Source of the DNA: Sabellastarte sp. h YS-2021 | Taxonomy: Eukaryota; Annelida; Polychaeta; Sabellida; Sabellidae | Assembly: GCA_964017235.1 (NCBI GenBank) | Contig: OZ024931.1 | Coordinates: 102,070,221 to 102,134,220 of the forward strand | Reading direction: 5' to 3' | DNA length: 64,000 nucleotides | Shown: piece by piece, positions 3,549-63,896 of the stretch | How positions within the stretch are numbered: position 1 is the stretch's first letter | Layout: every line of letters starts with the position of its first letter | Notes under the pieces: model-generated | Seen by the model: the letters and a program-made list of their open reading frames with translations, nothing else | Told to the model about the DNA's origin: nothing | The model's database searches: none | Position numbers and translations under genes: made by a program

Positions 3549-4544
3549 ATGTCCACCCCACTGGGGGGTGGACATGTTATTTTTGCTTTTTCCGGCATCC
3601 GCCGTCCGGATGCTTGGTTTCCGCTCATTTGAGGAAAAGTATTTATCCTATCTTTACCAAATTTGGTATGGGTGTTTATTGGGTTAATAGCTTGCATGGG
3701 ATTGCTTTTGGTGAAGATAGGTCTATAGCTAACTGAGTAATAGCTACTTTTGTGTACTTCTTTTGTTTCCGGGCATTTTAAGGAAAAATATTTGACATAT
3801 CTTTACCAAATTTAGTATGAGCATTACTTAGGTCGATAGCTTGCTTGGGATTGCTTTTAGTGATAATAGCTGTATAACTGACTGAGTAATAGCTACTTAG
3901 CTACTTTGCCAAAAATGGAAAAACACAACTTTGTTTCTATCTCCTTAACCCTTCAAGGTAGAGCGATTTCGTCGAAATTTTCGACCCACAGGGTATCTGA
4001 GAAATGTACACTTGGCAATTTTCAAAAAATTTTCCCCTCCCCAAAAATGGCGGCCATTTTGAATTTTCGAATTTTTGCCAAAAATGGCAAAACACAAATT
4101 TGCTTCTATCTCCTTAACCGTGCGAGATAGAGCAGTTTCGTCGAAATTTTCGATCCACAAGGTATCTGAGCAGTGTACTCTTAGCAATTTTCAAAAAAAG
4201 TTCCTCTTCCCACATATGGCGGCCATTTTGAATTTTCGTCAAAAATGGAAAAACACAAATTTGCTCCTATCTCCTTAACCGTGCGAGATAGAGCAATTTC
4301 GTCGAAATTTTCGACACAACCAATGCAAAAAGGCATGAAGCTAAAATAATTTACATGTATACTAATAAATATTTAAGTATCATTGATATATTTTACAAAT
4401 GAAACAGGGTCTTGTAAGACTACTGTACAATTTTTGCAAAAGGTTCATGGGGTGGACATTACACATGATAATATGTGTTCTTCTATGCTATCCTGTTTCT
4501 ATTCATATGTTGCAGCTACTATCAACAGGGCGTCCTATTTCTAG
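3549..4544 (+). mobile_element. H1 copy a: array-bearing non-autonomous element
   Basis: It starts with an 11-bp hairpin, ATGTCCACCCC ... GGGGTGGACAT (3549-3576). Two ~145-bp units follow (3620-3900), then about 2.5 units of the 169-bp satellite (3903-4320). An inverted copy of the 5' end, GGTGGACAT, lies at 4451-4459, next to a hairpin ACACAT-(loop)-ATGTGT, and the copy ends CTAG at 4541-4544. The second copy at 51046-52927 has the same start and end, which fixes both borders. Inserted in D1. Helentron-like by structure (inference). Confidence 0.75.
3903..4320. repeat. 169-bp satellite units within H1a
   Basis: About 2.5 copies of the unit TTGCTTCTATCTCCTTAACC ... ATAGAGCGATTTCGTCGAAA ... 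AAAATGGCGGCCATTTT ... TTTTGCCAAAAATGG. Short ORFs on both strands here are products of this repeat. Confidence 0.85.
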
Positions 4545-6375
4545 TTGTATTTCAGAGTGTACAAATATTGTGTTTTCTCAGGATATTCTGTCAAGTGGAT
4601 TATTAAGTTCATAGATCACAATAGCGTCCACTTCCGGGCAGAAAAGGGGAGTTTGTGGCCATGTAATGGCATCTTTTGATATGCACGTTTGATGTGCAAG
4701 ATGTCAAGTGAAAGTGGTAGGGTCGGACCCTTGTGTATGTGGTGAAGTGCCATGTAAGTTCTGTGTTATTTTAACCCCGGAACAAATACTTAAGCTGGCC
4801 ATTCCAAAATATAAAATTAGAAAGGAAAAGAAGGCAGAAGGTAAACAAGACACTGAACTTGTAGATCCACAGGAGGTTTCTGTAATCAAAGCTGTGTCAC
4901 CGTTGAAGAATCATCCCTCTTCTGCCCCGGTGAGTGCTTATATTAGTTCTGCTATGGTTTCCAGTCCTTCTACTGATCTGGACAAACGTTTAGATAATCT
5001 ACAAGATGAATGGGCAACTCACTTTGCCAGGATTGAAGCATTGCTCACTATGAAACCAAAAACTGATGCCGTCTTCTCTCCAGTTAAAGTACCGGTAAAC
5101 AAGACTGCTTAATCTGTTTCTAAGACGCCTTTTTTTTTACCCTTCCGTCCCTGACCGAAAGGTTCGTACCAGGTCCCAGAAGAGCAACATGATTTTAAAA
5201 TGAAATCTCCTCTTCAAGATTTGTATGGTGAATCCAAATTGGATCGTGACCCTTTGTTTTTTCCACTTCCGGTGCCCCTGCCGGTTCGGCAGCCGGACCG
5301 GAAGTAGATGACAGGGAAGATATCAGTGAGGGGGAATTGGTTACCAGTTTGGATACAGAACTTCCACCGGATCAGGAAAACATTCAAAGTGAAGACCAAT
5401 CTTATAGAGAGACAGTAAGAGGTGTTAGATCTTATATGGGGTGGAACTTTATTCCTGATCTTGAGTCTTCTGCTAAAAGTTCTTCTGACAACCCCTGGGT
5501 TGGAGGTCGCCCACAACCAGTTGGCAAGGTTTCTGTTGCCTTCCCTGCTGAAGAATGACTTTGCAAAAAGTTTGAGGATTTGAACCGTACTACCATATCT
5601 GGATATTATTCAAAGTCCATGAAAGCTGGAGGTTTTCAGACTGACCAGTTTTGAAGCCACCTAAAAGTCTATTCCGCTGGTACGTCATTCATAATTTGCC
5701 AGATCCAGCCACTGCCAGACCAGGATGTTCTGTTCACTACTGGTCCAGTGATGCATCTAAGTTAAATAGCCTGTTGCCAAGGCAGGTTGCCGAACCGGTT
5801 CCCCCACCTTGTAGGCAACTCCCTCAGGAGACAGTCAGAAAATGGGAGAAAGCTGCCCGTGAAACCTATATCAGCAATCAGGCGGCAGGATTCAACTGTT
5901 GCGTTACAAAATTGTAGGACAAAATTCAGGAGAACGTCAGAATCCTTCAGAAGGAGTTGTCCAAAGGCAAAGGATCACAGGTGGTTTTGGATCTAGTGGA
6001 GCTGTCAGTTCAGATCACTCTCTGCCTACCTCAGCAACCTGATCTAGTGGTTAAACCGTTCAACGGGAACCTACACAGGGATCTGGTCAGTCTGAACCTT
6101 CATGCCTGGCTCCTAGGGTCGAGGCGATCACACAACAGGGATTCTCTGATTAAGTGGCAGCAAGAATTGAGCCTCCTCAAAGACCGTCAACCAGGGCTAT
6201 CTACGAAGCGAAGTGGGCTCTTTTTGTTCGTTGGTGCCAGTCAAACCAGGTGGACTTGCGGTCACCCTCTATCAAACAGGTAGCGGATTTGCTCCTGTAC
6301 CTGTTTCAGGAAAACGGTTTGCAACCCAGTACCATTGAAGGATGTCAGGCTGCGGTAGCCGACAAACTAGTTTTG

Positions 6376-7290
6376 GGTCAGCTATAACATAGTAAAATTG
6401 CATACCTATAGCTCATTGCATAACTCAGCTATAGCTACTTTGAGTTTTTCACTATTGAGTAAATCAGTTGTATCTTGAAAACTGTTGCATTTAGAGAATT
6501 TTGTTTACAAATGCTGTTATGTACTTTTGAATCAGCTATAACATAGTAAAATTGTTGACCTATAGCTCATTGCATAACTGAGCAATAGCTACTTTCAGGT
6601 TCTCACTGTTGAGTAAATCAGTTGTAACTTGAAAATTATTACGTTTACAGAATTTTGTTTAAATATGTTATTCACCTACTTATGGGTCAGCTATGTCATA
6701 GTGAAATGGTAGACCTGCAGCTCATGGCATAGTTGAGCAATAGGTACTTTCAGGTTCTCACTGTTTAGTAAATGAGTTGTAACTTGAAAGCTATTGCATT
6801 TAGGGAATTTTGTTTGAATATGTTATTCATTACCTATGGGTCACCTATAACATAGTGAAATTACAGGCCTGTAGCTCATTGTATAGCTGAGCAATAGCTA
6901 CTTTCAGGTTTTCACTGTTGAGTAAATCACTTGTAACTTGAAAGTTATTGCATTTAGATATTTTTCTTTAAATAAGTTATTCACCTTCCTTTGGGACAGC
7001 TATAACATAGTAAAATGGTACCTGTAGCCCATTGCATAGCTGAGCAAAAGTACTTTAAGATTCTTATTGTTGAGGAAATTAGTTGTAACTTGAAATCTAT
7101 TGCATGTACAGTATTTTCTTTAAATGTGTTTTTCACCAACTTTTTACATATTTAGAGTTAACTTTGTACTTCTGAATACCATTTGCAGGGCACAACTTTT
7201 GTGTCCTTTTCTTCATTCACTTCTACTCTGAAACTCAAAACACGCAGTCAGCTGACACAGAGCCCGTTCATGGGCACTGATTGCTTGTTT
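6376..7290. repeat. ~155-bp tandem array (5 copies) plus hairpin tail
   Basis: Units starting near 6376, 6530, 6685, 6838 and 6990 share GTCAGCTATAACATAGTAAA ... GAGCAATAGCTACTTTCAGG ... TATTCACCTAC. After the array, 7150-7290 carries the same tail as 660-880, with AGAGCCCGTTCATGGGCACT. Unit order and landmark words resemble the 133-bp satellite of H2, so the two probably share ancestry. The left border coincides with the end of D1. Confidence 0.7.
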
Positions 7291-9330: not shown

Positions 9331-9433
9331 ACGTGTTTTCAACTAAGAGACGTTTTTGAAGTTTATCAACGAATTTCACCATTTTATGAACTTTTAAGTA
9401 TTCCTACTTAATTCTACGAGTTGTATCATCATT

Positions 9434-11030
9434 ATGTCATCACCTGGACAGAAAAGAGGAATCTGCGGGCACGTTATGGCTGTTTTTGATAACCACAAGA
9501 AATGTGCATGTTGCAGGGACAAGGGAGTGGGTGATGATCCGTGTGTTTAAAAAGCAGGAATGTAAGACCTGTCAGGCTCTCACTCCTGCGCATTTGAAGC
9601 AGCTTTCCACCCCCACCTACCAGTCCAGGAAAGAACGTGAATTGAAGAAGTCCATCTTCAGATTCCCCTGCTAGTGTTACCCCCATTCTCGTGGACCCAG
9701 CAAATGTTAGTGTGTTGGGACGGGTACACAAGGAATCTGATGGAAGTTCACCTGCTAGCAAGAAGAAGAGGGCAGACCCTTCCCCTACCCCCAAGGCTAG
9801 CAGTAAGAAGAAATCCAGCAGCAAGTTGAGATCTGATGATCTGAAGGAACTGGATGAGAAATGGTGTGAACGTTTTGCCAGGCTGGAGGCTATGCTGGTG
9901 TCCAACACGTTCACGGTTCCTGTGAATCCTGTACAGAACCCCCCTTCAGTGGTTACCAGTGATCAGCCCTTTTTTGATCCTGGAACTTCCACCAGTGGCG
10001 TGTCCTCTGGTGTGACTGTTGGGGGTACCGGTTCCAGTCTTGTTCAGACCACCGGTGAGGCTGCTGTGATGACAGAAGCTGGCAACAAGAGTGCTACCCA
10101 CCCTGTTGAGGGTCCCGGTACTGATGTGAAGCAGCAGAATGCCACCCAGCCTGTTGAGGCTCCCGGTGCAAGGACAGCCACCCAGCCTGTTGATGCTCCC
10201 GGTGCAGGTCCTGATGTTCTGCCAACCGCTGCTCTACATGCTGAGTTTTCCGGTTCTGACAGTGAGGAAGAACTCCAGAGTGATCCAGGACTTCCCGTCG
10301 ATGGCAACGTCCAGGAAAGTTCCTCAGACCTCTCCAAGAATGAAGCAGCTGATCAGGAGTTGTCTGAAAAGTCTACATACAGGGAGACTATCAGAGGCGT
10401 GAGGTCGTTCATGGGTTGGCATCAGATCCTTAAATTTGACAGTGTATCTTCTGCAGATAAACAACCCTTTTGCTGGTTCCAGAGCTCCACCAACCGGTAA
10501 AGTGTCTGTAAAGTTACCGGTAGATCACTGCCTGTGCATGAAATGGAGAAATTAAACCTCACTGTTGCTGAAGGCTACCCTTCCAAAAGTTCTGAACCTG
10601 CTGGACTGTTCCGGGACCAATTTGTCAAAACACCTAGGCCGTTTAAATGGTACGACATGCATGTTGACAAGAAAGAATGTGATAGAGCCACTGTGTGTTC
10701 CTGGTCTCCGGAACCGGCAAAGCTCAACAGTACCTTCAGTAGGGTTGCCAGGCGAAATCTACCTACTGCCCCACCCTCCCGGGCCCTTAACCAGGACATC
10801 TTGAGGCGTTGGGAGAGAGCAGCCAGAGAACAGTCGATTTTGTGCAACCAGGCTGCTGGACTCTCCAGATGTTTAAGCTTAAGTTATCTGGAATATTTAC
10901 ACGCTGGGGTTAAACAGGACACGCTTGCTGCACTGAGTACTGCACCCATTCATATACACTCACTGTTCCCGGACCAGCTTCTCATGAAGGCTGGAAGAGG
11001 AAGTGGCCAGAAGTGAGGAGAGGTGTTCTT
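9434..11030 (+). pseudogene. D2 gag-like zone (DIRS ORF1 fossil)
   Basis: Begins MSSPGQKRGICGHVMAVFD. Has a zinc-binding pattern C-x-H-x4-FD-x-H-x2-C-x2-C near the start, then a long low-complexity Ser/Pro/Thr-rich part. The same pattern is present in D1 and at the right edge of the window (D6). Part of a fossil element. Confidence 0.8.
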
Positions 11031-11599
11031 CTAGCCAGTCATACCGGAAACCCGGTCGTTTTCACCCTTATGCTTCCAGTGACAAGTCATTGCTTCAACA
11101 GAACCGGAAATCATCTGTGCCAGCTTGGAAGCAAATAAGAGAACGTCAGCAAAGCAGTAAAGGTCGTGGCAAGGCCTCCACCTTTTCACAGAAACAGTGT
11201 GCTACCGGGCTGAAGGACTGTGTATGTGTGCCCGGTCAGTTAGATTTGAACCCTTCACCGGTGGTGGCCAAGGACAATTTTATGACCAGCAAGAGCGAGA
11301 CTATTTTTATATGTAAACTCTTGTGTTGCAAATGTTCATTCTGTCACCGGGTTGCCACAAAAGAAAGGCGTAAATCCCAGTTATTGTCCAAATTACACAG
11401 AAATAAAATATGTGAAAGATGTTTCCTGTGTAGGTCACTTGAGTTCTGCAAATCTTGTCACAAATGCCCCAACTGTTGCTATAACTCCACCTGTAGGGTC
11501 AAGGTTACAGTAGTTTTGGGAGAAGTGGGAAGCTCTGGGTTCGAGTCCAAAGGTAGTCACAACACTGAGAGAGGGCTACACCCTCCCCTTCCGGTTCAG

Positions 11600-12510: not shown

Positions 12511-12529
12511 CCATTTAAGGTGGTGGCTG

Positions 12530-23394: not shown

Positions 23395-25600
23395 ACCCCA
23401 CAGCCCTAAAGGGCTGTCGGGTATTGTTTTCACCCATGGTGTCCTGATGGGCGTGCATGCGGGTAGCGGGAAAAAGTTTTTCCGGGCTGATATCTCAGAA
23501 ACCGTAAGGTATAGGAAGTTGATACTTGGTAGGGACATTGGTTATGGGATGTAGGTGTGCAACGTCATGGTGTGACCTTATTTGACGTTTGACCTTGCCG
23601 TAGTGTCCTTGAGTTTGAAAATCTTGTCCATACTATATCTTGGAAACCATAAGGTGTAGAAAGTTGATACTTGGTAGGAGTTGTAGGTGTGCAGCGTCAT
23701 GGTGTGACCTTAATGTGACCTTTGATCTTGCCATAGTGACCTCGACCTATAAAATCTTGTTTGGGCTATATCTCGGAAACGGTAAGGTGTAGGAAATTGA
23801 TACTTGGTTAGGGGGTATAGGTGTGCAACGTCATGGTGTGACCTTGATTTGACCTTTGACCTTGTCATGGTGACCATGAGTTTTAAAATCTCGTCTGGGG
23901 TATTACTTGGATTCCATAAGGTGTAGAAGGTTGACACTTGGTAGGGACATTGGTTAGGGGATGTAGGTGTGCATCATGGTGTGACTTTTAACTATGGCTA
24001 TGCCAAAGTGTGTTCATCTGCCATATTTGAGACATCTTTCTCTTTTAAGGGGCTATCAACGTAACGCATTACTTTTACGGCCCGACGAAAGTGGTTTCAA
24101 CAAGGGAATGATTTTTTCAGGGATGTATATTTCTTAGGCTTAAAGTCACAAATTATTGAGGAGAATATGTTTGTTTGTTCTGTGATATGTTGAATAAGAG
24201 AAATAAAGTTATACAACAAAATGTCCTTGTTGTTTTAAAGTTTTATATTTTTACATATAAACACCAAATAACAAAGATAAATGTGAAATAAATATGTGCT
24301 ATTTCTGGACACCTAAAACAGTGCATACCTTCCTGTTGTGACACAATTAACATACAAAAAGAAAAGCAACAACAGTTTTTTATACACTATTCCAAAGAAA
24401 AATGTCTCACAAAAATTTTGAATGAATTAGATTTTCATTTAATTTGGGCATTTATTTTCAGAGATAAAAACAAAGAAACACAACATTTTATGTTTTCATT
24501 TTTTCATCTCTATTTCTCATTACACTCATTTAAAATGTCAAGAAACCACTATTTAAAATTGTAAATCATTCAAATAAATCTGTATGCGTTTGGAGGCTTG
24601 TGTATGTATTTAGATCTTTATTTAGAACAGCATGGTTTATATATCGTGTCACAGTACAGAAGCATCTCCCTTCTCTCTGAGCCAACTTTTATAGCCTCTC
24701 ACCAGTAACTAAGGCGTAGTTATACAAAATATTCTATTTTTAATTTGGCTTCCTATATCTTAGTGTATATATCTCTAAATAAAAACAATTTTTCCTAACA
24801 TGTCTATATTTTTATAAGTAAACTACTCCATTCTCATTGAATATATGTACATCTTATCTTCCATCAGTGAGAATTATATTTTATATGGACAGATACTCTT
24901 TCAATGTAAGAAGTGCCTTGACTAATGAAAACAAAGCTTTGTAAATTATTGTTACACTTAAGAAATTTTCATCAGAATAGTATAACTTTAGATAAATTTA
25001 TTATATTAACAATTAAGATGACACAAATATAGATTCAGTGTGTGTAAAGAAATGTTTCACTGTAAGTAAGCAGAAAGGCTAAATACACACGCAGTGCATG
25101 TTTAAAAAATGTGGGTTCATTTTATCAGTGCAGAAAAGACTGGCACTCACATACAGTAACAGTAGTAAACTGGCAAGATCTACAAGAGCATTATTGATTT
25201 TTCCAAGTGGGTGCTATACATATATAGAAGGCAAGAGCATTATTTACAAAACGTAGTACTAAATGCAGTGTTTTATCATTTATACTGATCTTTTTCAACG
25301 GCTGAAAGAAAATGACGTAACTGTCCCTCTCGTAAATAATAGTCCGTGCATAGCAACAGTGACTCTGTCTGCTTCACCATCTGGCGGACGTTACGTAAAC
25401 AAATTTTATGTACTTACGTTGATAGCCCCTTAACAAAGATATATGGATTGTTGCAACTGATTATTATATAGATGGATTGTTGCAACTGATTATTAAATGC
25501 ACTTTTACATAATTGTGCTTTTTTCATCTTTGTACTGTTTCACTTCTATTTCTATATCTCATGGTGTTGAAAACTATTTTCCCAATGCTGTGGCTGACAT
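23395..25600 (+). mobile_element. H3 copy a, inserted in DC and split by a TTAA element
   Basis: Head hairpin ACCCCACAGCCCT-AA-AGGGCTGT (23395 on), leader ATTGTTTTCACCC, about 3.5 units of the 146-bp repeat (23470-24000), then a tail (CATCTTTGTACTG ... ATATCTCATGGTGTTGAAAA) with GCTGTGG at 25587-25593. The tail is interrupted at 24045-24048 by the TTAA-flanked transposon. A 30-bp duplication (GGATTGTTGCAACTGATTAT) lies just after that insertion. Confidence 0.75.
24049..25429. mobile_element. TTAA-flanked non-autonomous DNA transposon, 1381 bp
   Basis: Perfect 16-bp terminal inverted repeats, GGGGCTATCAACGTAA and its complement, flanked on both sides by TTAA (24045-24048 and 25430-25433). The interior is AT-rich with no ORF. 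TTAA duplication is known for piggyBac and some other superfamilies. The ends do not start with the CCC typical of piggyBac, so the superfamily is left open. Confidence 0.85.
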
Positions 25601-31243: not shown

Positions 31244-31274
31244 AAATTCCCGAACATCAAAGTTCAATAAAATT

Positions 31275-36801: not shown

Positions 36802-38893
36802 ACCCCACAGCCCTTGAGGGCTTTCGGGGTATTGTTTTCACCCGTGGTGTCCGCGGGCGGCGGGAAAAAGTTTGTCTGAGCTGTATCTCAGAAACCATAA
36901 GGTGTAGGAAGTTGATACTTGGTAGGGACATTGGTTAGGGGGTGTAGGTGTGCAACGTCATGGTGTGACCTTGATTTGACCTTTGACCTTGCCGTAGTGA
37001 CCTTGACCTCTAAAATCTTGTCCGGGCTATATCTCGGAAACCGTAAGGTGTAGGAAGTTGATACTTGATAGGGATATTGGTTAGGGGGTGTAGGTGTGCA
37101 GCGTCATGGTGTGACCTTGATTTGACCTTTGACCTTGCCGTAGTGACCTTGACCTATAAAATCTTGTCCGGGCTAGATCTCGGAAACTGTAAGGCGCAGG
37201 AAGTTGATACTTGGTAGGGACAATGGTTAGGGGGTGTAGGTGTGCAACGTCATGGTGTGACCTTGATTTGACCTTTGACCTTGCCGTAGTGACCTTGACC
37301 TCTAAAATCTTGTCCGGGCTATATCCCGGAAACAGTAAGGTGTAGGAAGTTGATACTTGGTAGGGATATTGGTTAGGGGGTGTAGGTGTGCAGCGTCATG
37401 GTTTGACCTTGATTTGACCTTTGACCTTGCCGTAGTGACCTTGACCTATAAAATCTTGTCCGGGCTAGATCTCAGAAACCATAAGGTGTAGGAAGTTGAT
37501 ACTTGGTAGGGACATTGGTTAGGGGGTGTAGGTGTGCAACGTCATGGTGTGACCTTGATTTGACCTTTGACCTTGCCGTAGTGACCTTGACCTCTAAAAT
37601 CTTGTCCGGGCTATATCTCGGAAACCGTAAGGTGTAGGAAGTTGATACTTGATAGGGATATTGGTTAGGGGGTGTAGGTGTGCAGCGTCATGGTGTGACC
37701 TTGATTTGACCTTTGACCTTGCCGTAGTGACCTTGACCTATAAAATCTTGTCCGGGCTAGATCTCGGAAACTGTAAGGCGCAGGAAGTTGATACTTGGTA
37801 GGGACAATGGTTAGGGGGTGTAGGTGTGCAACGTGATGATGTGACCTTGATTTGACCTTTGACCTTGCCATAGTGACCTTGACCTATAAAATCTTGTCCG
37901 GGCTATATCCCGGAAACAGTAAGGTATAGGAAGTTGATACTTGGTAGGGATATTGGTTAGGGGGTGTAGGTGTGCAACGTCATGGTGTGACCTTGATTTG
38001 ACCTTTGACCTTGCCGTAGTGACCTTGACCTCTAAAATCTTGTCCGGGCTATATCTCGGAAACCGTAAGGTGTAGGAAGTTGATACTTGGTAGGGATATT
38101 GGTTAGGGGGTGTAGGTGTGCAGCGTCATGGTTTGACCTTGATTTGACCTTTGACCTTGCCGTAGTGACCTTGACCTATAAAATCTTGTCCGGGCTAGAT
38201 CTCGGAAACTGTAAGGCGCAGGAAGTTGATACTTGGTAGGGACATTGGTTAGGGGGTGTAGGTGTGCAACGTGATGGTGTGACCTTGATTTGACCTTTGA
38301 CCTTGCCATAGTGACCTTGACCTATAAAATCTTGTCCGGGCTATATCCCGGAAACAGTAAGGTATAGGAAGTTGATACTTGGTAGGGACATTGGTTAGGG
38401 GGTGTAGGTGTGGAACGTCATGGTCTGACCTTGATTTGACCTTTGACCTTGCCCTAGTGACCTTGACCTATAAAATCTTGTCCTCGCTATATCTCGGAAA
38501 CCGTAAGGTGTAGGAAGTTAATACTTGGTAGGGACATTGGTTAGGGGGTGTAGGTGTGCAACGTCATGGTCTGACCTTGATTTGACCTTGTTGTAGTGAC
38601 CTTGACTTTTAAAATCTCCAACTCCACATTCATTGAATGTAATACCACTTCTGTATGCATGGTAATATTCAAAACATCTAAACCATAATTCGGCCATGTC
38701 AAATGTAGATAAAGAATACATGCATTATCTTTCTCTTAGACATTATTTTCTCTATTTAAACATTGGACCTTTATATAACTGACAGTGCTATGAAAGTGTC
38801 CTGAACTTTCTACTGATACACTACTTCTATATCTCATGGTGTTAAAAATATTTCCGTAGGCTGTGGGGTACGGGCATCTCTGATGCTATTTTT
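36802..38893 (+). mobile_element. H3 copy b: intact array-bearing element
   Basis: Head hairpin ACCCCACAGCCCT-TG-AGGGCT...GGGGT at 36802, leader ATTGTTTTCACCCGTGGTGT, about 12 units of 146 bp (36870-38610), a unique tail of ~280 bp, the inverted copy of the head GGCTGTGGGGT (38859-38869) and end hairpin GCATC-TCT-GATGC. Copy c at 46513-47510 has the same head and tail, which fixes the borders. No ORF; it must depend on proteins supplied elsewhere. Confidence 0.85.
36870..38610. repeat. 146-bp tandem array with 438-bp higher-order period
   Basis: Unit: CCGGGCTATATCTCGGAAAC, GTTGATACTTGGTAGGGACA, TGTAGGTGTGCAACGTCATG, TTTGACCTTTGACCTTGCCG. Variant units (GGCGCAGG, GATAGGGATATT, GGCTAGATCTC) recur every third unit, giving a 438-bp higher-order repeat. 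Also present at 22497-22960, 23470-24000, 41335-41700 and 46590-47020. Confidence 0.9.
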
Positions 38894-41315: not shown

Positions 41316-41702
41316 TACCCCACAGCCTTTAAGGGCGTAGGTGTGCAACGTCATAGTGTGACCTAGATTTGACCTTTGACTTTGCTGTAGTGACCTTGAC
41401 CTATAAAATCTTGTCCGGGCTACATCTCGGAAACCATAAAGTGTAGGAATTTGACACTTGATGGGTACATTGGTTAGGGGATGTAGGTGTGCAATGTCAT
41501 GGTGTGACCTTGATTTGACCTTTGACCTTGCCGTAGTGACCTTGACCTATAAAATGTTGTCCGGGTTAAATCTCAGAAACTGTAAGGTGTAGGAAGTTAA
41601 TACTTGGTAGGGACATTGGTTGGGAGTTGTAGGTGTGCAATGTCATGATTTGACCTTGATTTGACTTTTAATCTTACTGTAGTGACCTTGACCTTTAAAA
41701 TT
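41316..41702 (+). mobile_element. H3 copy d, truncated
   Basis: A shortened head (ACCCCACAGCCTTTAAGGGC) runs directly into about 2.5 units of the 146-bp repeat. The tail is absent, and the D5 fossil begins at 41703. Confidence 0.7.
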
Positions 41703-44999: not shown

Positions 45000-46312
<1,313 letters not shown>

Positions 46313-46512: not shown

Positions 46513-47510
46513 ACCCCACAGCCATTAAGAGCTGTTGGGGTATTGTTTTCACCCATGGTGTACGGATGGGTGGGTGGGTGGGCGGCGGGAAAAAGGTTGT
46601 CCGGGCTGTATCTCAGAAACCGTAAGGTGTAGGAAGTTGATACTTGGTAGGGACATTGGTTAGGAGGTGTAGGTGTGCAACATCATGGTCTGACCTTGAT
46701 TTGACCTTGCCGTAGTGACCTTGTGTTTGAAAATCTTCTCCGGGCTATATTTTGGAAACCGTAAGGTGTAGGAAGTTGATACTTGGTAGGGACATTGGTT
46801 AGGGGGTGTAGGTATGCAACATTATGGTGTGACCTTGATTTGACCTTGTCGTAGTGACCTTGACCTATAAAATCTTGGCTGGGCTATATCTTGAAAACCA
46901 TGAGGTGTAGGAAGTTGATGCTTGGTAGGGACATTGGTTAGGGGTTGTAGGTGTGCAGCATAAGGGTGTGACCCTGAATTGACCTTGTCATAGTGACCTT
47001 GACCTTTAAAATCTTGTTGCACCTTTGGTTCTGTCTTTTGATGCAGATTAAGCACTGTTAAAGTCATATTAGAACTCATTAAGAATTTTACTTTCATAAC
47101 TTCCCATTGTAACAGATGGAATTTCATCAAGTGACCCACAGACTTTGCTCCAACACCACACATAAGCATTCATTGAATGTATTACCACTTCTTTATGCAT
47201 GGTAATATTCAAAACATCCAAACCATAATTCGGCCATGCCAGATGTAGATAAAGACTGTCATAATGTTTAGTTTATTGATTAATGCTGTCATCTTGTTAT
47301 TGCATTGTCTTGTTTTAATACTTCATCTTTACATGCATTATCTTTCTTTTAGACATTATTTTCTCTATTTAAACATTGTTTTGACCTTTATATAACTGAT
47401 AGTGCTCTGAAAGTATCCTGAACTTTGTACTGATACACTACTTCTGTATCTCATGGTGATAAAAATATTTCCCTAGGCTGTGGGGTACGGGCATCTCTGA
47501 TGCTATTTTT
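46513..47510 (+). mobile_element. H3 copy c: array-bearing element
   Basis: Head ACCCCACAGCC...GGGGT at 46513, about three 146-bp units (46590-47020), and the family tail (CATTCATTGAATGTATTACC ... GACATTATTTTCTCTATTTA) with a short extra stretch near 47270-47330. The inverted end copy GGCTGTGGGGT is at 47476-47486 and the hairpin GCATC-TCT-GATGC at 47491-47503. It differs from copy b mainly in array length. Confidence 0.85.
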
Positions 47511-50498: not shown

Positions 50499-51045
50499 AC
50501 GCTTGTTTGTGTATGGGAGAGCTTCAGGTTCCGGCGGCTCCGCCGGCTCTGCCTGCCCCGCCGGCTCCGCATTTTGTTTTCCTTATAACTCTGTAACCGT
50601 TAGGCGGATTCTTTTCAAATTTGGCAGGTTTAGGCAGTAGCCTTGGGGAATTTTTTTGAATATGCTGCAGTGACATTTCAACCAATCAGAGAGGTCACAT
50701 GACCAAAAATGTCTTTTTTCGGTGGGGAAGCTTGTCCGGATGATAACTTGAAAGGAATTTTATCAATTCACCTGAAACTTGGCAAATACATTCATTCTAT
50801 TAAAATCTGGAAATCATTAGATTTTGGCATTGATTGGTCAAGAAATGGCCGAGTAATTAATGATTAATTAATCATTACGAATTTTCCAAATAAGGAAAAC
50901 ACAAAAATGCTTATATCTCGAAAACCGTGCTATATGGAGCGAACTCAACAAAATTTTAGACCTGCTGGGTATCTCTGCAGAGTAGCCATGTCAATTTTCA
51001 AAATATTTTTGTCTCGCCAAATGTAGCGGACATTTTTAATTTTTT

Positions 51046-52927
51046 ATGTCCACCCCCCTGGGGGGTGGATATATTATTTTTGCTTTTTTCGCCGTCCGAT
51101 GTCCGATGTCCGGCGTCCGGCGTCCGGCGTCCGATGTCCGGCGTCACGCATGGTTTCCGCTCATTTAAAGGAAAAGTATTAGAGCTATTGTCACCAAATT
51201 TGGTATGCAGGCTTATTGGGTCAGTAGCTTGCTTGGGATTGCTTTTGGCTGTTGTACCTCTTTTGCTTACTGAGTAATACTTAAGTACAGCTATTTTCAG
51301 TACCCATTGGTTTCCGTGCATTTAAGCCAAAATAATTAAAGATATTTTACTACAATTTTGAATACAAGATTGTTATGTCCATAGCTCGCTTGGTATTGCA
51401 TTTGGGACTGATAGCTTTGTCAGTACATGAGTAATAGCCATTTAGGTACTTCATTGTGTATTTTCAGTACTACTTTTGAGTAATTTGCTTCTATCTCCTT
51501 AACCGTGCGAGATAGAGCGATTTCGGCAAAATTTTCGACGCACAGGGCATCTAAGCAATGCAATCTTTGCAATTTTCAAAATATTTTCCCCTCCCCAAAA
51601 ATGGCGGCCATTTTCGAATTTTTGCCAAAAATGGCAAAACACAAATTTGCTTCTATCTCCTTAACCGTGCGAGATAGAGCGATTTCGTCAAAATTTTCGA
51701 CCCACAGGGTATCTAAGGAATGTAATCTTTGCAATTTTCAAAAAATTTTCCCCTCCCCAAAAATGGCGGCCATTTTGAATTTTCGAATTTTTGCCAAAAA
51801 TTGCAAAACACAAATTTGCTTCTATCTCCTTAACCGTGCGAGATAGAGCGATTTCATCGAAATTTTCGACCCACAGGGTATCTAAGGAGTGTAATATTTG
51901 CAATTTTCAAAAAATTTTCCCCTCCCCAAAAATGGCGGCCATTTTGAATTTTCGAATTTTTGCCAAAAATGGCAAAACACAAATTTGCTTCTATCTCCTT
52001 AACCGTGCGAGATAGAGCGATTTCGTCGAAATTTTCGACCCACAGGGTATCTAAGGAATGCAATCTTTGCAATTTTCCAAAAATTTTCCCCTCCCCAAAA
52101 ATGGCGGCCATTTTGAATTTTCGAATTTTTGCCAAAAATGGCAAAACACAAATTTGCTTCTATCTCCTTAACCGTGCCAGATAGAGTGATTTCGTCAAAA
52201 TTTTCGACCCACAGGGTATCTGAGCATTGTACTCTTGGTAATTTCTAAAAAATTTTCCCCTCCCCTAAAATGGCGGCCATTTTGAATTTTCAAATTTTTG
52301 CCAAAAATGGCAAAACACAAATTTGCTTCTATCTCCTTAACCATGCGAGATAGAGCGATTTCGTCGAAATTTTCAACCCACAGGGTATCTAAGGAATGTA
52401 ATCTTTGCAATTTTCAAAAAATTTTCCCCTCCCCAAAAATGGCAGCCATTTTGAATTTTCGAATTTTTGCCCAAAATGGAAAAACACAAACTGGCCTTAA
52501 CCGTGCAAAATAGAGTTATTTTGTTGAAATTTTCGACCCATAGGGTATCTAAGAAATGTACTCTTGGCAATTTTCAAAAAAATTTCCTTTTCCCAATAAT
52601 GGCGGCCATTTTGAATTTTCAAATTTTTGCCAAAAATAGAAAAACAGGAATTGGCTTCTATCTTCTTAACCGTGCAAGATAGAGTGATTTCGTCAAAATT
52701 TTCAACCCAACCAATGCAAAAAGGCATGAAGCTGAAATAAATTACATCTACACTATCAAATATTTAAGCATCATTGATATATTTTACAAATGAAACAGGG
52801 TCTTGTAAGACTACTGTACAATTTGGGCAAAAGGTTCATGGGTGGACATTACACATGATAATGTGTGTTCTTCTATGCTATCCTGTTTCTATTCGCATCT
52901 ACTATCAACAGGGCGGCCTATTTCTAG
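51046..52927 (+). mobile_element. H1 copy b, nested in H2 copy A
   Basis: Head ATGTCCACCCC...GGGGTGGAT at 51046, 145-bp units, seven or eight 169-bp units (51480-52730), inverted end copy GGTGGACAT at 52841-52849, then CTAG at 52924-52927. The empty site is visible at 56486-56510 and 63440-63465 (AATTTTTTATTTTTTGC-like), so the insertion is well supported. Confidence 0.8.
51480..52730. repeat. 169-bp satellite array (H1 type)
   Basis: Units of ~169-171 bp with AACCGTGCGAGATAGAGCGA, TTTCGACCCACAGGGTATCT, CCCCTCCCCAAAAATGGCGG. Each carries the palindrome AAAATGGCGGCCATTTT or a close variant. Repeated short ORFs of 71-80 codons on both strands are echoes of this unit. Confidence 0.92.
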
Positions 52928-52929
52928 TT

Positions 52930-53795
52930 TATTTTTTGCAAAACACAAAAATGCTTATATCTTGAAAACCATGCTAGATAGAGCAGACTGCGCTGACTTT
53001 GGTTGCCACAACAGTATAAGGCTAGAAACGAAGCATTTTCTTAATACTTTAGCACTCACCTTTATATCCTTTTATAAATTTTTGACCCGCAGGGTATCTC
53101 TGTGGAGTAGTTTTCCCAATTTTCAAAAAATTTTTGTCTCGCCCAAAATGGCGGCCATTTTGAATTTTCGAAATTTTCGCAAAAATTGCAAAACACAAAA
53201 ATGCTTATATCTCAAAAACCGTGCTAGATAGAGCAATTTCGACAAAATTTTTGACCCGCAGGATATCTCTGCGGAGTACTTTTCCCAATTTTCAAAAAAT
53301 TTTTGTCTCGCCAAAAATGGCGGCCATTTTGAATTTTCGAAATTTTCGCAAAAATTGCAAAACACAAAAATGCTTATATCTCGAAAACCGTGCTAGATAG
53401 AGCGATTTCGACGAAATTTTTGATCCAAAGGGTATCTCTGCAGAGTAGTTATCCCTATCCCAATTTTGAAAAAAATGTTGTCTCGCCAAAAATGGCGGCC
53501 ATTTTGAATTTTCGAATTTTTCGCAAAAATTGCAAAACATAAAAATGCTTATATCTCGAAAACCGTGCTAGATAGAGCGATTTCGACGAAATTTTTGACC
53601 CACAGGGTATCTCTGCAGAGTAGCCATGCCAATTTTCAAAAAAATTTTGTCTCGCCAAAAATGGCGGCCATTTTCAATTTTCGAATTTTTGCGCAAAAAT
53701 TGCAAAACACAAAAATGCTAATATTTCGAAAACCATGCTACATTTCCACGAAATTTTTTATCTTCAGGGTATCTCTGCAGAGCAGCTATCCCAAA
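52930..53795. repeat. 169-bp satellite array (H2 type)
   Basis: About five units with ATGCTTATATCTCGAAAACC, GTGCTAGATAGAGCGATTTC, GGTATCTCTGCAGAGTAG, TTTTTGTCTCGCCAAAAATG. Clearly a sister variant of the H1 unit, with the same AAAATGGCGGCCATTTT core. Confidence 0.92.
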
Positions 53796-56200
53796 GAGCT
53801 TTCACTTGGTGAAGTTTCAGACCCATAGCTAATTGCTCACCTACTCAAAAAGAGTAAATGCGAATTACCTCTAAAAGTATTGCAGATGGCCAATTTTTCT
53901 CAAATAACTCATTCACCTACTTTTGGAAGAGCTTTCACTTGGTAAAGTTTCAGACCCGTAGCTAATTACTCACCTACTCAAAATGAGTAAATGCTAATTA
54001 TCTCAAAAACTATTGCGGATACCCAATTTTTATCAAATAACTCATTCATGTACTTTTGGGAGAGCTTTCACATGGTGAAGTTTCAGACCTGTAGATGATT
54101 ACTCACCTACTCAAAATGAGTAAATGCGAATTAGCTCTTAAAAGTATTGCAGATAGCCAATTTTTTTCAAATAACTCATTCACCTACTTTTGGAAGAGCT
54201 TTCACATGGTGAAGTTTCAGACCCATAGCTAATTACTCACCTACTCAAAATGAGTAAATGCGAATTATCTGTAAAAGTATTGCAGATAGCCAATTTTTCT
54301 CAAATAACTCATTCACCTACTTTTGGGAGAGTTTCACATGGTGAAGTTTCAGAACCATAGCTAATTATTTACCTACTCAAAATGAGTAAATGCTAATTAT
54401 CTGTAAAAGTATTGCGGATACCCAATTTTTATCAAATAAATCATTCACCTACTTTTGGGAGAGCTTTCACTTGGTGAAGTTTCAGACCCATAGCTAATTA
54501 CTCACCTACTCAAAATGAGTAAATGCGAATTATCTCTAAAAGTATTGCAGATAGCCAATTTTTCTCAAATAACTCATTCACCTACTTTTGGGAGAGCTTT
54601 CACTTGGTGAAGTTTCAGACCCATAGCTAATTACTCACCTACTCAAAATGAGTAAATGCGAATTATCTCTAAAAGTATTGCAGATAGCCAATTTTTGTCA
54701 AGTTAATCATTCACCTACTTTTGGGAGAGCTTTCACTTGGTGAAGTTTCAGACCCATAGCTAATTACTCACCTACTCAAAATGAGTAAATGCGAATTATC
54801 TCTAAAAGTATTGCAGATAGCCAATTTTTCTCAAATAACTCATTCACCTACTTTTGGGAGAGCTTTCACTCTGTGAAGTTTCAGACCCATAGCTAATTAC
54901 TCACCTACTCAAAATGAGTAAATGCGAATTATCTCTAAAAGTATTGCAGATAGCCAATTTTTCTCAAATAACTCATTCACCTACTTTTGGGAGAGCTTTC
55001 ACTTGGTGAAGTTTCAGACCCATAGCTAATTACTCACCTACTCAAAATGAGTAAATGCGAATTATCTCTAAAAGTATTGCAGATAGCCAATTTTTCTCAA
55101 ATAACTCATTCACCTACTTTTGGGAGAGCTTTCACTCTGTGAAGTTTCAGACCCATAGCTAATTACTCACCTACTCAAAATGAGTAAATGCGAATTATCT
55201 CTAAAAGTATTGCAGATAGCCAATTTTTCTCAAATAACTCATTCACCTACTTTTGTGAGAGCTTTCACTTGGTGAAGTTTCAGACCCATAGCTAATTACT
55301 CACCTACTCAAAATGAGTAAATGCGAATTATCTCTAAAAGTATTGCAGATAGCCAATTTTTCTCAAATAACTCATTCACCTACTTTTGGGAGAGCTTTCA
55401 CTTGGTGAAGTTTCAGACCCATAGCTAATTACTCACCTACTCAAAATGAGTAAATGCGAATTATCTCTTTAATAGTATTGCAGATAGCCAATTTTTATCA
55501 AATAACTCATTCACCTACTTTTGGGAGAGCTTTCACTTGGTGAAGTTTCAGACCCATAGCTAATTACTCACCTACTCAAAATGAGTAAATGCGAATTATC
55601 TCTAAAAATATTGCAGATACCCAATTTTTCTCAAATAACTCATTCACCTACTTTTGGCAGAGCTTTCACTTGGTGAAGTTTCAGACCCATAGGTAATTAT
55701 TCACCTACTCAAAATGAGTAAATGTGAATTATCTCTAAACGTATTGCAGATAGCCAATTTTTCTCAAATAACTCATTCACCTACTTTTGGGAGAGCTTTC
55801 ACTCTGTGAAGTTTCAGACCCATAGCTATTTTTTCACCTACTCAAAATGAGTAAATGCTAATTATCTGTAAAAGTATTGCGGATACCCAATTTTTATCAA
55901 ATACTCATTCATCTACTTGTGGGAGAGCTTTCACATGGTGAAGTTTCAGACCCATAGCTAATTACTCACCTACTCAAAATGAGTAAATGCGAATTATCTC
56001 TAAAAGTATTGCAGATAGCCAATTTTTCTCAAATAACTCATTCACCTACTTTTGGGAGAGCTTTCACTTGGTGAAGTTTCAGACTCATAGCTAATTATTC
56101 ACCTACTCAAAATGAGTAAATGTGAATTATCTCTTTAATAGTATTGCAGATAGCCAATTTTTCTCAAATAACTCATCCACCTACTTTTGGCAGAGCTTTC
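53796..56200. repeat. 133-bp satellite array, about 18 units
   Basis: Unit: GAGCTTTCACTTGGTGAAGT, TTCAGACCCATAGCTAATTA, CTCACCTACTCAAAATGAGT, AATGCGAATTATCTCTAAAA, GTATTGCAGATAGCCAATTT. Contains the inverted repeat ACTCA-AAA-TGAGT. Most units differ at only a few positions. Noncoding. Confidence 0.95.
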
Positions 56201-56705
56201 ACACACGAAAATGAAAAATTATGAATATCTCGGAAAAGCTATTTCTTTTGCTTTAATGCTCGGCGGGAGATACACACCGCGGCAGTGGTTTTGACAAAAA
56301 TTTTTGTCTCCCCAAAAATGGTGGCCATTTTGAATTTTCAAAGTTTTTGCAAAACACAAAAATGCTTATATCTCGAGAACCGTGCTATATGGAGCGAACT
56401 CAACAAAATTTTAGACCTGCTGGGTATCTCTGCAGAGTAGCCATGTCAATTTTCAAAATATTTTTGTCTCGCCAAATATAGCGGACATTTTTAATTTTTT
56501 TATTTTTTGCAAAACACAAAAATGCTTATATCTTGAAAACCATGCTAGATAGAGCAGACTGCGCTGACTTTGGTTGCCACAACAGTATAAGGCTAGAAAC
56601 AAAGCATTTTCTTAATACTTTAGCACTCACCTTTATATCTTTTTCGGGACGCTTTGTTTTTGCTATGCAAAAACATTATTTTTTTTTTTGCGAGCGATCC
56701 TCTAG

Positions 56706-58661: not shown

Positions 58662-59204
58662 TTTTATTGCGCTACAATAGCTTACCATGTGGGACTGAAT
58701 GCTAACTCGGGAGGCCGCAACTCCAGCCAACGACCAAGAAAAATGGACGTTTGGAATTGGCGGAGTCCGTGGTTTAGTATGTACCATAGCAGTGTCGTTT
58801 GGTAATTAAGCGTCCCGCAAGGGACGCTTGTTTGTGTATGGGAGAGCTTCTGGCTCCGCCGGCTCCGCCGGCTCCGCATTTTGTTTTCCTTATAACTCTG
58901 TAACCGTTAGGCGGATTCTTTTCAAATTTGGCAGGTTTAGGCAGTAGCCTTGGGGAATTTTTTTGAATATGCTGCAGTGACATTTCAACCAATCAGAGAG
59001 GTCACATGACCAAAAATGTCTTTTTTCGATGGGGAAGCTTGTCCGGATGATAACTTGAAAGGAATTTTATCAATTCACCTGAAACTTGGCAAATACATTC
59101 ATTCTATTAAAATCTGGAAATCATTAGATTTTGGCATTGATTGGTCAAGAAATGGCCGAGTAATTAATGATTAATTAATCATTACGAATTTTCCAAATAA
59201 GGAA

Positions 59205-60478
59205 AACACAAAAATGCTTATATCTCGAAAACCGTGCTAGATAGAGCGATTTTGACGAAATTTTTGACCCGCAGGGTATCTCTGCGGAGTAGTTTTCCCA
59301 ATTTTCAAAAAATTTTTGTCTCGCCCAAAATGGCGGCCATTTTGAATTTTCGAAATTTTCGCAAAAATTGCAAAACACAAAAATGCTTATATCTCAAAAA
59401 CCGTGCTAGATAGAGCAATTTCGACAAAATTTTTGACCCGCAGGATATCTCTGCAGAGTACTTTTCCCAATTTTCAAAAACTTTTTGTCTCGCCAAAAAT
59501 GGCGGCCATTTTGAATTTTCGAAATTTTCGCAAAAATTGCAAAACACAAAAATGCTTATATCTCGAAAACCCTGCTAGATAGAGCGATTTCGACGAAATT
59601 TTTGACCCACAGGGTATCTCTGCAGAGTAGTTGTCCCAATTTTGAAAAAATTTTTGTCTCGCCAAAAATGGCGGCCATTTTGAATTTTCGAATTTTTCGC
59701 AAAAATTACAAAACACAAAAATGCTTATATCTCAAAAACCGTGCTAGATAGAGCAATTTCGACAAAATTTTTGACCCGCAGGATAACTCTGCGGAGTAAT
59801 TTTCCCAATTTTCAAAAAATTTTTGTCTCGCCAAAAATGGCAGCCATTTTGAATTTTCGAAATTTTCGCAAAAATTGCAAAACACAAAAATGCTTATATC
59901 TCGAAAACCGTGCTAGATAGAGCGATTTCGACGAAATTTTTGACCCGCAGGGTATCTCTGCAGAGTAGTTATCCCAATTTTGAAAAAATTTTTGTCTCGC
60001 CAAAAATGGCGGCCATTTTGGATTTTCGAATTTTTCGCAAAAATTGCAAAACATAAAAATGCTTATATCTCGAAAACCCTGCTAGATAGAGCGATTTCGA
60101 CGAAATTTTTAACCCGCAGGGTATCTCTGCAGAGTAGCTGCCAATTTTCAAACAAAAAATTTCTCGCCAAAAATGGCGGCCATTTTGAATTTTCGAATTT
60201 TTCGCAAAATTGCAAAACACAAAAATACTTATATCTCGAAAACCGTGCTAGATAGAGCGATTTCGACGAAATTTTTGACCCACAGGGTATCTATGCAGAG
60301 TAGGCATGCCAATTTTCAAAAAAATTTTGTCTTGCCAAAAATGGCGGCCATTTTGAATTTTCGAATTTTGGCGCAAAAATTGCAAAACACAAAAATGCTA
60401 ATATTTCGAAAACCGTGCTACATAGAGCGATTTCAACGAAATTTTTTATCTTCAGGGTATCTCTGCAGAGCAGCTATC
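59205..60478. repeat. 169-bp satellite array in H2 copy B
   Basis: About eight units. Alternating variants (CGTGCTAGATAGAGCAATTT with GACCCGCAGGATA against AGCGATTTC with CAGGGTATC) give a 338-bp two-unit period. YY1-like core AAAATGGCGGCCATTTT in nearly all units. Confidence 0.92.
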
Positions 60479-60483
60479 CCAAA

Positions 60484-63160
60484 GAGCTTTCACTTGGTGA
60501 AGTTTCAGACCCATAGCTAATTGCTCACCTACTCAAAAAGAGTAAATGTGAATTACCTCTAAAAGTATTGCAGATAGCCAATTTTTCTCAAATAACTCAT
60601 TCACCTACTTTTGGGAGAGCTTTCACTTGGTGAAGTTTCAGACCCATAGCTAATTACTCACCTACTCAAAATGAGTAAATGCGAATTATCTCTAAAAGTA
60701 TTGCAGATGGCCAATTTTTCTCAAATAACTCATTCACCTACTTTTGGAAGAGCTTTCACATGGTGAAGTTTCAGACCCATAGCCAATTACTCACCTACTC
60801 AAAATGAGTAAATGCGAATTATCTCTAAAAGTATTGCAGATAGCCAATTTTTCTCAAATAACTCATTCACCTACTTTTGGGAGAGCTTTCACATGGTGAA
60901 GTTTCAGACCCATAGCTAATTATTTACCTACTCAAAATGAGTAAATGCTAATTATCTGTAAAAGTATTGCGGATACCCAATTTTTATCAAATAACTCATT
61001 CATCTACTTGTGGGAGAGCTTTCACATGGTGAAGTTTCAGACCCATAGCTAATTACTCACCTACTCAAAATGAGTAAATGCGAATTATCTGTAAAAGTAT
61101 TGCAGATAGCCAATTTTTCTCAAATAACTCATTCACCTACTTTTGGGAGAGCTTTCACTTGGTGAAGTTTCAGACCCATAGCTAATTACTCACCTACTCA
61201 AAATGAGTAAATGTGAATTATCTCTAAAAGTATTGCAGATAGCCAATTTTTCTCAAATAACTCATTCACCTACTTTTGGGAGAGCTTTCACTTGGTGAAG
61301 TTTCAGACCCATAGCTAATTACTCACCTACTCAAAATGAGTAAATGCGAATTATCTCTAAAAGTATTGCAGAGAGCCAATTTTTGTCAAATTAATCATTC
61401 ACCTACTTTTGGGAGAGCTTTCACTTGGTGAAGTTTCAGACCCATAGCTAATTACTCACCTACTCAAAATGAGTAAATGCGAATTATCTCTAAAAGTATT
61501 GCAGATAGCCAATTTTTCTCAAATAACTCATTCACCTACTTTTGGGAGAGCTTTCACTCTGTGAAGTTTCAGACCCATAGCTAATTACTCACCTACTCAA
61601 AATGAGTAAATGCGAATTATCTGTAAAAGTATTGCAGATAGCCAATTTTTCTCAAATAACTCATTCACCTACTTTTGGCAGAGCTTTCACTCTGTGAAGT
61701 TTCAGACCCATAGCTAATTACTCACCTACTGAAAATGAGTAAATGTGAATTATCTCTAAAAGTATTGCAGATAGCCAATTTTTCTCAAATAACTCATTCA
61801 CCTACTTTTGGGAGAGCTTTCACTTGGTGAAGTTTCAGACCCATAGCTAATTACTCACCTACTCAAAATGAGTAAATGCGAATTATCTCTAAAAGTATTG
61901 CAGATAGCCAATTTTTCTCAAATAACTCATTCACCTACTTTTGGGAGAGCTTTCACTCTGTGAAGTTTCAGACCCATAGCTAATTACTCACCTACTCAAA
62001 ATGAGTAAATGCAAATTATCTCTAAAAGTATTGCAGATAGCCAATTTTTCTCAAATTAATCATTCACCTACTTTTGGCAGAGCTTTCACTCTGTGAAGTT
62101 TCAGACCCATAGCTAATTACTCACCTACTCAAAATGAGTAAATGCGAATTATCTGTAAAAGTATTGCAGATAGCCAATTTTTCTCAAATAACTCATTCAC
62201 CTACTTTTGGGAGAGCTTTCACTTGGTGAAGTTTCAGACCCATAGCTAATTACTCACCTACTCAAAATGAGTAAATGCGAATTATCTCTAAAAGTATTGC
62301 AGATAGCCAATTTTTCTCAAATTAATCATTCACCTACTTTTGGGAGAGCTTTCACTTGGTGAAGTTTCAGACCCATAGCTAATTACTCGTCTACTCAAAA
62401 TGAGTAAATGTGAATTATCTCTAAAAGTATTGCAGATAGCCAATTTTTCTCAAATAACTCATTCACCTACTTTTGGGAGAGCTTTCACTTGGTGAAGTTT
62501 CAGACCCATAGCTAATTACTCACCTACTCAAAATGAGTAAATGCGAATTATCTCTAAAAGTATTGCAGATAGCCAAGTTTTCTTAAATAAATCATTCACC
62601 TACTTTTGGGAGAGCTTTCACTTGGTGAAGTTTCAGACCCATAGCTAATTATTCACCTACTCAAAATGAGTAAATGTGAATTCTCTCTAAAAGTATTGCA
62701 GATAGCCAATTTTTCTCAAATAACTCATTCACCTACTTTTGGGAGAGCTTTCACTTGGTGAAGTTTCAGACCCATAGCTATTTATTCACCTACTCAAAAT
62801 GAGTAAATGCTAATTATCTGTAAAAGTATTGCGGATACCCAATTTTTATCAAATACTCATTCATCTACTTGTGGGAGAGCTTTCACATGGTGAAGTTTCA
62901 GACCCATAGCTAATTACTCACCTACTCAAAATGAGTAAATGCGAATTATCTCTAAAAGTATTGCAGATAGCCAATTTTTCTCAAATAACTCATTCACCTA
63001 CTTGTGGGAGAGCTTTCACTTGGTGAAGTTTTAGACCCATAGATAATTATTCACCTACTCAAAATGAGTAAATGTGAATTATCTCTTAATAGTATTGCAG
63101 ATAGCCAATTTTTCTCAAATAACTCATTCACCTACTTTTGGAAGACCTTTCACACACGAA
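60484..63160. repeat. 133-bp satellite array in H2 copy B, about 20 units
   Basis: Same unit and the same variant units (CACTCTGTGAAG; CAAATTAATCATTCACC; GCTAATTATCTGTAAAAG) as in copy A, in a partly similar order. This points to copying of whole arrays and not independent growth. Confidence 0.95.
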
Positions 63161-63896
63161 AATGAAAAATTGTGAATATCTCGGAAAAGCTATTTCTTCT
63201 GCTTTAATGCTCGGCGGGAGATACACACCACGGCAGTGGTCTTGACAAAAATTTTTGTCTCCCCAAAAATGGTGGCCATTTTGAATTTTCAAAGTTTTTG
63301 CAAAACACAAAAATGCTTATATCTCGAAAACCGTGCTATATGGAGCGAACTCAACAAAATTTTGGACCTGCTGGGTATCTCTGCAGAGTAGCCATGCCAA
63401 TTTTCAAAATATTTTTGTCTCGCCAAATATAGCGGACATTTTTAAGTTTTTTATTTTTTGCAAAACACAAAAATGCTTATATCTTGAAAACCGTGCTAGA
63501 TAGAGCAGACTGCGCTGACTTTGGTTGCCACAACAGTATAAGGCTAGAAACGAAGCATTTTCTTAATACTTTAGCACTCACCTCTATATCCTTTTCGGGA
63601 CGCTTTGTTTTTGCTATGCAAAAACATTATCTTTTTTTTTTGCGAGCGATCCTCTAGTTCGTCCTTCTTCTCTCGTTGGCCGCCATATTAGAAAGTCATT
63701 TGAAATATCTCTGAATAATTTACTGATTTCTCAGCACATATGTATTGTTGGATGTCTATTTTCAGTCATTTGTTTTATTTTATTGTATAGAACGTTCTGT
63801 AAAATTTTGGGAAGCACAGGATAAGTATTCTTTGAATATTTAATGTTTTTGTGAGTTTTCCGCGTTCCGACTCGGATTTCTTATTGCAGTAAAAAT

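Follow-up and report, generated by a model that had tools for sequence, protein, structure and literature searches.

Do repeat families with little in common at their ends, lying together in one stretch of annelid DNA, represent a single known kind of mobile element? The stretch in question, hereafter the window, comprises 64,000 nucleotides of Sabellastarte sp. h YS-2021 (Annelida, Sabellidae; assembly GCA_964017235.1, contig OZ024931.1, positions 102,070,221 to 102,134,220, forward strand). A first-pass annotation of the window described three families, H1, H2 and H3, said to share a plan composed of a 5' hairpin, internal tandem arrays, an inverted copy of the start near the 3' end and a 3' hairpin, a layout attributed to Helentron/Helitron2-type rolling-circle elements. 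We find this plan to be real in H1 (3549-4544, 51046-52927), H2 (58808-63657) and H3 (36802-38893, 46513-47510), and consider it highly probable that the three are families of non-autonomous Helentrons (HINEs). The attribution is supported, since the elements display most structural features of HINEs and the genome encodes Rep, PIF1 and endonuclease proteins of Helentron type; a Helentron-type non-autonomous element is thus the best reading of H1-H3. The elements and their parts are located as follows.

3549..4544, + strand: H1a, complete element, 996 bp (end motifs, inverted copy)
3549..3575, + strand: H1a 5' hairpin, 11-bp stem, 5-nt loop (folding)
3905..4315, + strand: H1a 169-bp tandem array, 2.5 copies (tandem repeat)
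4449..4459, - strand: H1a bases 1-11 repeated in inverted form, no mismatch (motif search)
4461..4478, + strand: H1a 3' hairpin (folding; not better than tail shuffles)
50499..56705, + strand: H2b, H2 copy truncated at its 5' end and split by H1b (by eye; H2 body flanks H1b left and right)
51046..52927, + strand: H1b, complete element nested in H2b, 1882 bp
51093..51145, + strand: H1b microsatellite after the 5' hairpin
51482..52709, + strand: H1b 169-bp array, 7.4 copies
52839..52849, - strand: H1b bases 1-11 repeated in inverted form, 1 mismatch
53076..53740, + strand: H2b 169-bp array, 3.9 copies
53795..56202, + strand: H2b 133-bp array, 18.1 copies
56646..56654, - strand: H2b inverted copy of the first 9 bases
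56702..56705, + strand: H2b 3' end CTAG (by eye)
58808..63657, + strand: H2a, complete element, 4850 bp
58808..58829, + strand: H2a 5' hairpin, 9-bp stem, loop GCAA (inverted TTGC in other copies)
58852..58877, + strand: H2a microsatellite after the 5' hairpin
59203..60482, + strand: H2a 169-bp array, 7.6 copies; the H1 array is its homologue
60483..63153, + strand: H2a 133-bp array, 20.1 copies
63597..63605, - strand: H2a bases 1-9 repeated in inverted form, no mismatch
63606..63626, + strand: H2a 3' hairpin, 9-bp stem, loop TAT (folding)
36802..38893, + strand: H3a, complete if the 3' TTTTT is counted in
36872..38589, + strand: H3a 146-bp array, 11.8 copies
38859..38869, - strand: H3a bases 1-11 repeated in inverted form, no mismatch
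38874..38886, + strand: H3a 3' hairpin GCATC-TCT-GATGC (folding)
46513..47510, + strand: H3b, complete if the 3' TTTTT is counted in
46597..47016, + strand: H3b 139-bp array, 3.0 copies
47476..47486, - strand: H3b bases 1-11 repeated in inverted form, no mismatch
23395..23946, + strand: H3c, 5' portion plus array, no 3' end recognised
41317..41701, + strand: H3d, damaged H3 start plus array, no 3' end recognised
45841..46072, + strand: paralogous empty site for the H3 copy in locus L071

The HINE traits present are a subterminal inverted repeat (subTIR), a 5' inverted repeat, an array core, a 3' palindrome and a T-rich target, with a microsatellite after the start in H1 and H2. The 5' hairpin begins at base 1 in all three families, as described, and is strong: in the five elements 0, 0, 0, 4 and 1 of 200 shuffles fold equally well. 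The inverted copy comprises the first 9-11 bases and lies 24-85 bp before the 3' end (85, 78, 52, 24 and 24 bp), without mismatch in four of the five elements and with one in H1b. Among 2000 shuffled tails none contained as good a copy, or two for the shorter 9-mer of H2. The 3' hairpin, folded in one copy per family, is clear in H2 (0/200 shuffles) and H3 (3/200) and present but weak in H1 (54/200). Internal arrays of 139-169 bp units occur in H1-H3, accompanied in H2 by a 133-bp array; open frames of at least 110 amino acids overlap the elements. The CTAG ends given for H1 and H2 hold, although the flanks are TT...TT rather than T...T; H3 ends in CTA-TTTTT, not CTAG. The supposed absence of any shared end sequence stands for the right ends (about 220-295 bp), no more alike than shuffles, and for the first 60 bp of H1/H3 and H2/H3, whereas H1/H2 is borderline there (12/500 shuffles as good), and the longer left parts of these two score 31, where none of 100 shuffles passed 30. 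Overlooked in the first-pass annotation were the 5'-truncated H2 copy holding H1b (50499-56705) and two damaged H3 copies (23395 and 41317).

As that annotation had proposed, the genome (1.786 Gb, 647 contigs) was searched for the ends, with the same pattern read backwards as control. The H1 motif ATGTCCACCCC has 17,459 matches versus 682 for the backward pattern. Starts are found by the thousand in H1 (2,002 with any 5-base loop) and H2 (6,953 with any 4-base loop), and the strict H3 start 119 times, against none for each backward start pattern. These counts are so far above the controls that a chance origin of the H1-H3 ends is ruled out. The H2 copies are young: in the 400 bases downstream of the hairpin, 31 of them are on average 97.9% identical. 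Insertions also fall into one another: H1b sits inside H2b, and at locus L069 an H3 copy starts directly after the CTAG-TT of an H2 end. By eye, two H2 copies (L050, L054) begin at the same place in an apparent 143-bp repeat, that of window 22-595.

The flanks of these copies point to a preference for Ts. TT precedes the start in 5/5 H1 flanks (four further rows, which are the hairpin read backwards, were left out) and in 31/31 H2 flanks, two of which (L039 and L040) are identical and may be one event. It also follows CTAG at 7/8 H1 ends, the exception being the altered L002, and at 3/3 H2 ends, so that H1 and H2 both lie in a T-rich target with TT on either side. An A stands before TT at 29/31 H2 starts (L033-L062 and window 58808); the left target or border of H2 may be ATT. 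In H3 the T-run is exactly five long on the left in 23/31 and on the right in 11/15 copies, the two nearest left Ts being uninformative because TT belonged to the search pattern. The suggested check against empty sites was possible for two insertions with paralogous empty sites, each of which added the element plus Ts. The H3 copy of L071 aligns with window 45841-46072 at 88% identity across the junction (238 columns); the empty site has a single T5 and the filled site T5 on either side, while the copy at 2582, which is more distant, shows C plus four Ts. For H1b, two other H2 copies (56381-56618 and 63332-63569) serve as empty sites, with seven Ts, or G and six Ts, versus nine (6+3) in the filled site. 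The net gain is thus the element plus 2 T in H1 or 5 T in H3. Either these Ts are part of one element end or they are a duplicated T-run, and the two are indistinguishable because both empty sites lie within T-runs. Locus L085 is flanked by TTCTT at left and TTTTT at right, which speaks for a 3' T-run encoded by the element. The number of Ts at the target is likewise uncertain in mite HINEs (PMC4067079; this and the other papers cited are drawn on in excerpt). If the Ts were a duplicated T-run target, H1-H3 could be elements of a cut-and-paste (DDE) family, resembling miniature inverted-repeat transposable elements. The net gains at the empty sites and the regular five-T runs of H3 would fit such a duplication. 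We nevertheless hold this origin to be very unlikely: terminal inverted repeats at both termini are absent, the inverted copy sitting 24-85 bp inside the 3' end, and the flanks of L085 are no exact duplicate, though one mutation would explain them.

Canonical Helitrons end in CTRR, which the CTAG ends of H1 and H2 approach, together with a 3' hairpin. That H1-H3 are canonical Helitrons rather than Helentrons is, all the same, most improbable. Their targets are TT or T-runs, H3 lacks the CTAG end, and having the 5' sequence repeated in inverted form close to the 3' end is characteristic of HINEs and Helentrons (PMC4067079, PMC7492417). The Rep proteins of the genome speak similarly. Pfam Helitron_like_N (PF14214) matches 24 places, where Rep motif 2 has the GSPH form in nine, a WPH or WPY form in eight and no clear form in seven; GSPH is diagnostic of Helentrons (PMC4067079), and none of the 17 loci with a readable motif has GLPH. 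One open frame (L015+L093, scanned as two halves) joins DUF6570, Helitron_like_N, PIF1 and a C-terminal endonuclease match, the last (Exo_endo_phos, E 4.6e-05) slightly under the Pfam cut-off (23.7 versus 24.5 bits), so that Rep, PIF1 helicase and endonuclease occur in one frame. As four Rep copies (L012, L014, L015, L017) are about 99% identical over 2-3.5 kb, Helentrons look to have been recently active in this genome. In the region C3:168669951-168684636 (L094, L015, L093; 1 kb unread), tandem arrays of a further family, with units of 130-146 bp, come after the long open Helentron frame.

Could the layout merely arise from satellite arrays, with hairpins formed by chance and no mobility? 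Tandem array does make up most of H2a, H3a and H1b, but the idea is barely credible and in our view refuted by the empty sites and by thousands of dispersed copies with the same start and mostly different flanks. Under the Helentron reading, a Rep protein acting in trans would recognise the ends, that is, the 5' hairpin, its inverted copy and the 3' hairpin. It would nick 5' of the element; one strand would be peeled off by rolling-circle replication up to the 3' hairpin and joined into a T-rich target. The tandem arrays would be passengers, growing and shrinking inside the element.

Are the families, then, unrelated, as had been claimed? This applies to their ends, which lack clear similarity, but not to the 169-bp arrays of H1 and H2, which are homologous: the consensus units are identical in 142/169 columns (84%), about 105 standard deviations above shuffles. 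The fetched stretches contain 238 such monomers, 31 of them unassigned; all 207 assignable to H1 or H2 sort by family (H2 163/163, H1 44/44). This array is held by 29/30 H2 and 6/8 H1 loci, and the H3 array by 30/30 H3 loci. The simplest account is that the array passed once, long ago, between the H1 and H2 families and was then homogenised separately in each. In the Pacific oyster each array cluster goes with one flank pair, the reverse not being true (PMC7492417), and a passage of PMC12628747 reports the same array type inside and outside elements and the possibility of several types per element, so that movement of arrays is by itself no novelty. A new detail is that families with different ends have a core array in common: we found no published account of one HINE array under different flanks in a literature search that was weak on subscription papers. 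Such sharing is a likely exception to the oyster rule and implies that arrays may move from one family of elements to another.

Array units and left parts were compared in 45 pairs, with 100 shuffles each. Among the 22 pairs listed, seven exceed all their shuffles: the H1/H2 169-bp units; the H2 133-bp unit versus the array at 6367; and, weakly, the H2 169-bp unit versus the H3 unit and versus the array at 22, and the H2 left part versus the H3 unit, the L093 unit and the H1 left part. The array at 6367-7144, of 154-bp units, is homologous to the H2 133-bp array (score 133 versus at most 32 in 100 shuffles), and by eye no H1-H3 ends lie beside it. A stretch like TATATCTCGGAAACCGT recurs in the H2 and H3 array units (59203-60482, 36872-38589) and less exactly in the H2 left part (58891-58935). 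An iteron-like motif common to the arrays was considered and set aside, the evidence (at best a 16/17-base match between H2 and H3) being too thin for a claim.

Several results weigh against reading H1-H3 as three HINE families with an exchanged array. The 3' hairpin of H1 is no better than chance (54/200 shuffles as good), and duplication of a T-run could account for the Ts gained at both empty sites. H1 and H2 may alternatively be old relatives with fast-changing ends, not exchange partners, an alternative kept alive by the borderline likeness of their left parts. The autonomous Rep/helicase partner with the same ends that the first-pass annotation had called for did not emerge: the proteins exist, none is linked to H1-H3 ends, and no autonomous copy bearing these ends was found. 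The left and right parts of H1-H3 have no firm match in the 24 Rep loci (L009-L032), L093 and L094 except L025, where a decayed Rep fragment has one H3 element as its neighbour on the opposite strand. About 13.7 kb around the full L015 frame (with a 1-kb gap) showed no H1, H2 or H3 end, and no end pair of this frame itself was recognised within 1.6 kb upstream or 6.4 kb downstream of it. For each of the arrays A151, H1_169, H2_169, H3_146 and A143, 1/26 stretches has a match of at least 80 bases. Since L015 is the one Rep locus read beyond 1.5 kb, the missing partner is not evidence against its existence; the authors of the oyster study likewise linked no autonomous partners (PMC7492417).

The H2 start hairpin, with stem AAGCGTCCC/GGGACGCTT and loop GCAA, adds an observation of its own. 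In 631 of the 6,953 intact starts the loop is inverted to TTGC, its reverse complement, all four bases being changed while the stems are intact. Among 100 matches listed there are 70 GCAA, 14 TTGC, 7 ACAA, 3 TTGT and 6 other loops; TTGT and ACAA are again reverse complements of each other. It is unlikely that four point changes in parallel produced the inversion. The loop state is linked to base 39: GGGAGACCTTC is found in 243/631 inverted and 842 of about 5,302 non-inverted copies, the latter total being approximate as the difference of two patterns of unequal length. Inverted loops nevertheless occur on both base-39 states (243 of about 1,085, or 22%, and 388 of about 4,848, or 8%; chi-square 192), which argues against one uniform rate and also against a single origin without exchange. 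A tree of the 31 H2 copies requires 5 loop changes versus 5.6 for shuffled labels but, with no firmly supported branch, is also compatible with one origin. H1 has the inverted loop CCAGT at 25 starts, spread over ten contigs, compared with 2,002 starts whatever the loop (patterns that differ by one free base); for H3, with its few copies, the strict inverted start had no match. As a control, the 3' hairpin has one inverted loop in 38 readable rows, of 7,555 matches. Thus 3' loops can invert too, and this small control does not fall significantly below the 5' rate (p 0.25 against 631/6,953, 0.07 against 14/100).

How does the loop invert? Inversion of hairpin loops by short-range template switching has been described (PMC8794818), and template switching at hairpins is the default explanation here. 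A link to transposition is possible because the H2 and H1 rates differ about eight-fold, though the H1 stem is longer. We put forward, with considerable doubt, that the 5' hairpin might be re-made during transposition, the loop being copied in either direction. Flip and flop forms are familiar from parvovirus ends. If tied to transposition, the loop state would record hairpin copying or resolution in the rolling-circle intermediate. The inversion is frequent enough to count and offers a simple signature for testing models of Helentron transposition. Frequent inversion of the start-hairpin loop is a new detail and the most testable novelty of this work: no loop inversion or flip in Helitrons or Helentrons was found in a literature search weak on subscription papers, nor in the excerpts seen of PMC12628747, PMC8268682 and PMC11136912.

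Regarding the other contents of the window, an exon-like frame at 25852-26361 matches an ABC-transporter transmembrane domain (PF00664), and the single gene in which the first-pass annotation placed the families is probably an ABC transporter. Retroelement copies with reverse transcriptase (RVT_1) lie at 9646-14151 and 28332-34278 (two frames of the latter were scanned), with a weak, below-cut-off tyrosine-recombinase (Phage_integrase) match. By their make-up we take them to be DIRS-like.

The kind of element described here, including several unrelated families on one plan, is already known. HINEs have been reported from mites, Drosophila and the Pacific oyster (PMC4067079, PMC7492417), and unrelated families on one plan within the oyster genome are in print (PMC7492417). 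In the mite elements HINE-Mo and Helentron-Mo and in Drosophila DINE-1, as here, palindromic subTIRs lie near the 5' end with an inverted copy near the 3' end, followed by a 3' palindrome, and the targets are T-rich with an uncertain number of Ts. The partner Helentron-Mo encodes Rep, PIF1 and an AP-like endonuclease; the Helentron frame of this genome likewise joins Rep, PIF1 and an endonuclease match. In contrast, two mite HINE subfamilies are tied to autonomous partners at 84-99.9% identity, whereas none is tied here. The inverted copy lies 38-60 bp from the 3' end in the mite and 24-85 bp here, and the hairpin starts 2-4 bases in there but at base 1 here, unless the flanking Ts are counted in (PMC4067079).

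A close parallel is Cg_HINE of the oyster (PMC7492417), a likeness of layout by description. Like H1-H3, it combines a 5' subTIR and inverted repeat, a short microsatellite, and a 3' subTIR with palindrome, around tandem monomers of 138-181 bp in fixed orientation; also shared are TT or T-rich targets, families unrelated in sequence and the lack of a linked partner. It differs in that an array cluster goes with one flank pair, while here one array family lies between two, and inversion of the loop, present in H2 and H1, is unmentioned in the excerpts of that paper. The aside in the first-pass annotation that bivalve Pearl elements with array cores are probably of the same kind anticipated what is already published: Pearl elements, compared here by description, carry central repeats of about 160 bp between conserved flanks and have been re-classed as non-autonomous Helentrons (PMC7492417). 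The present families extend this picture of satellite-carrying Helentrons from oysters to another large genome, in thousands of copies.

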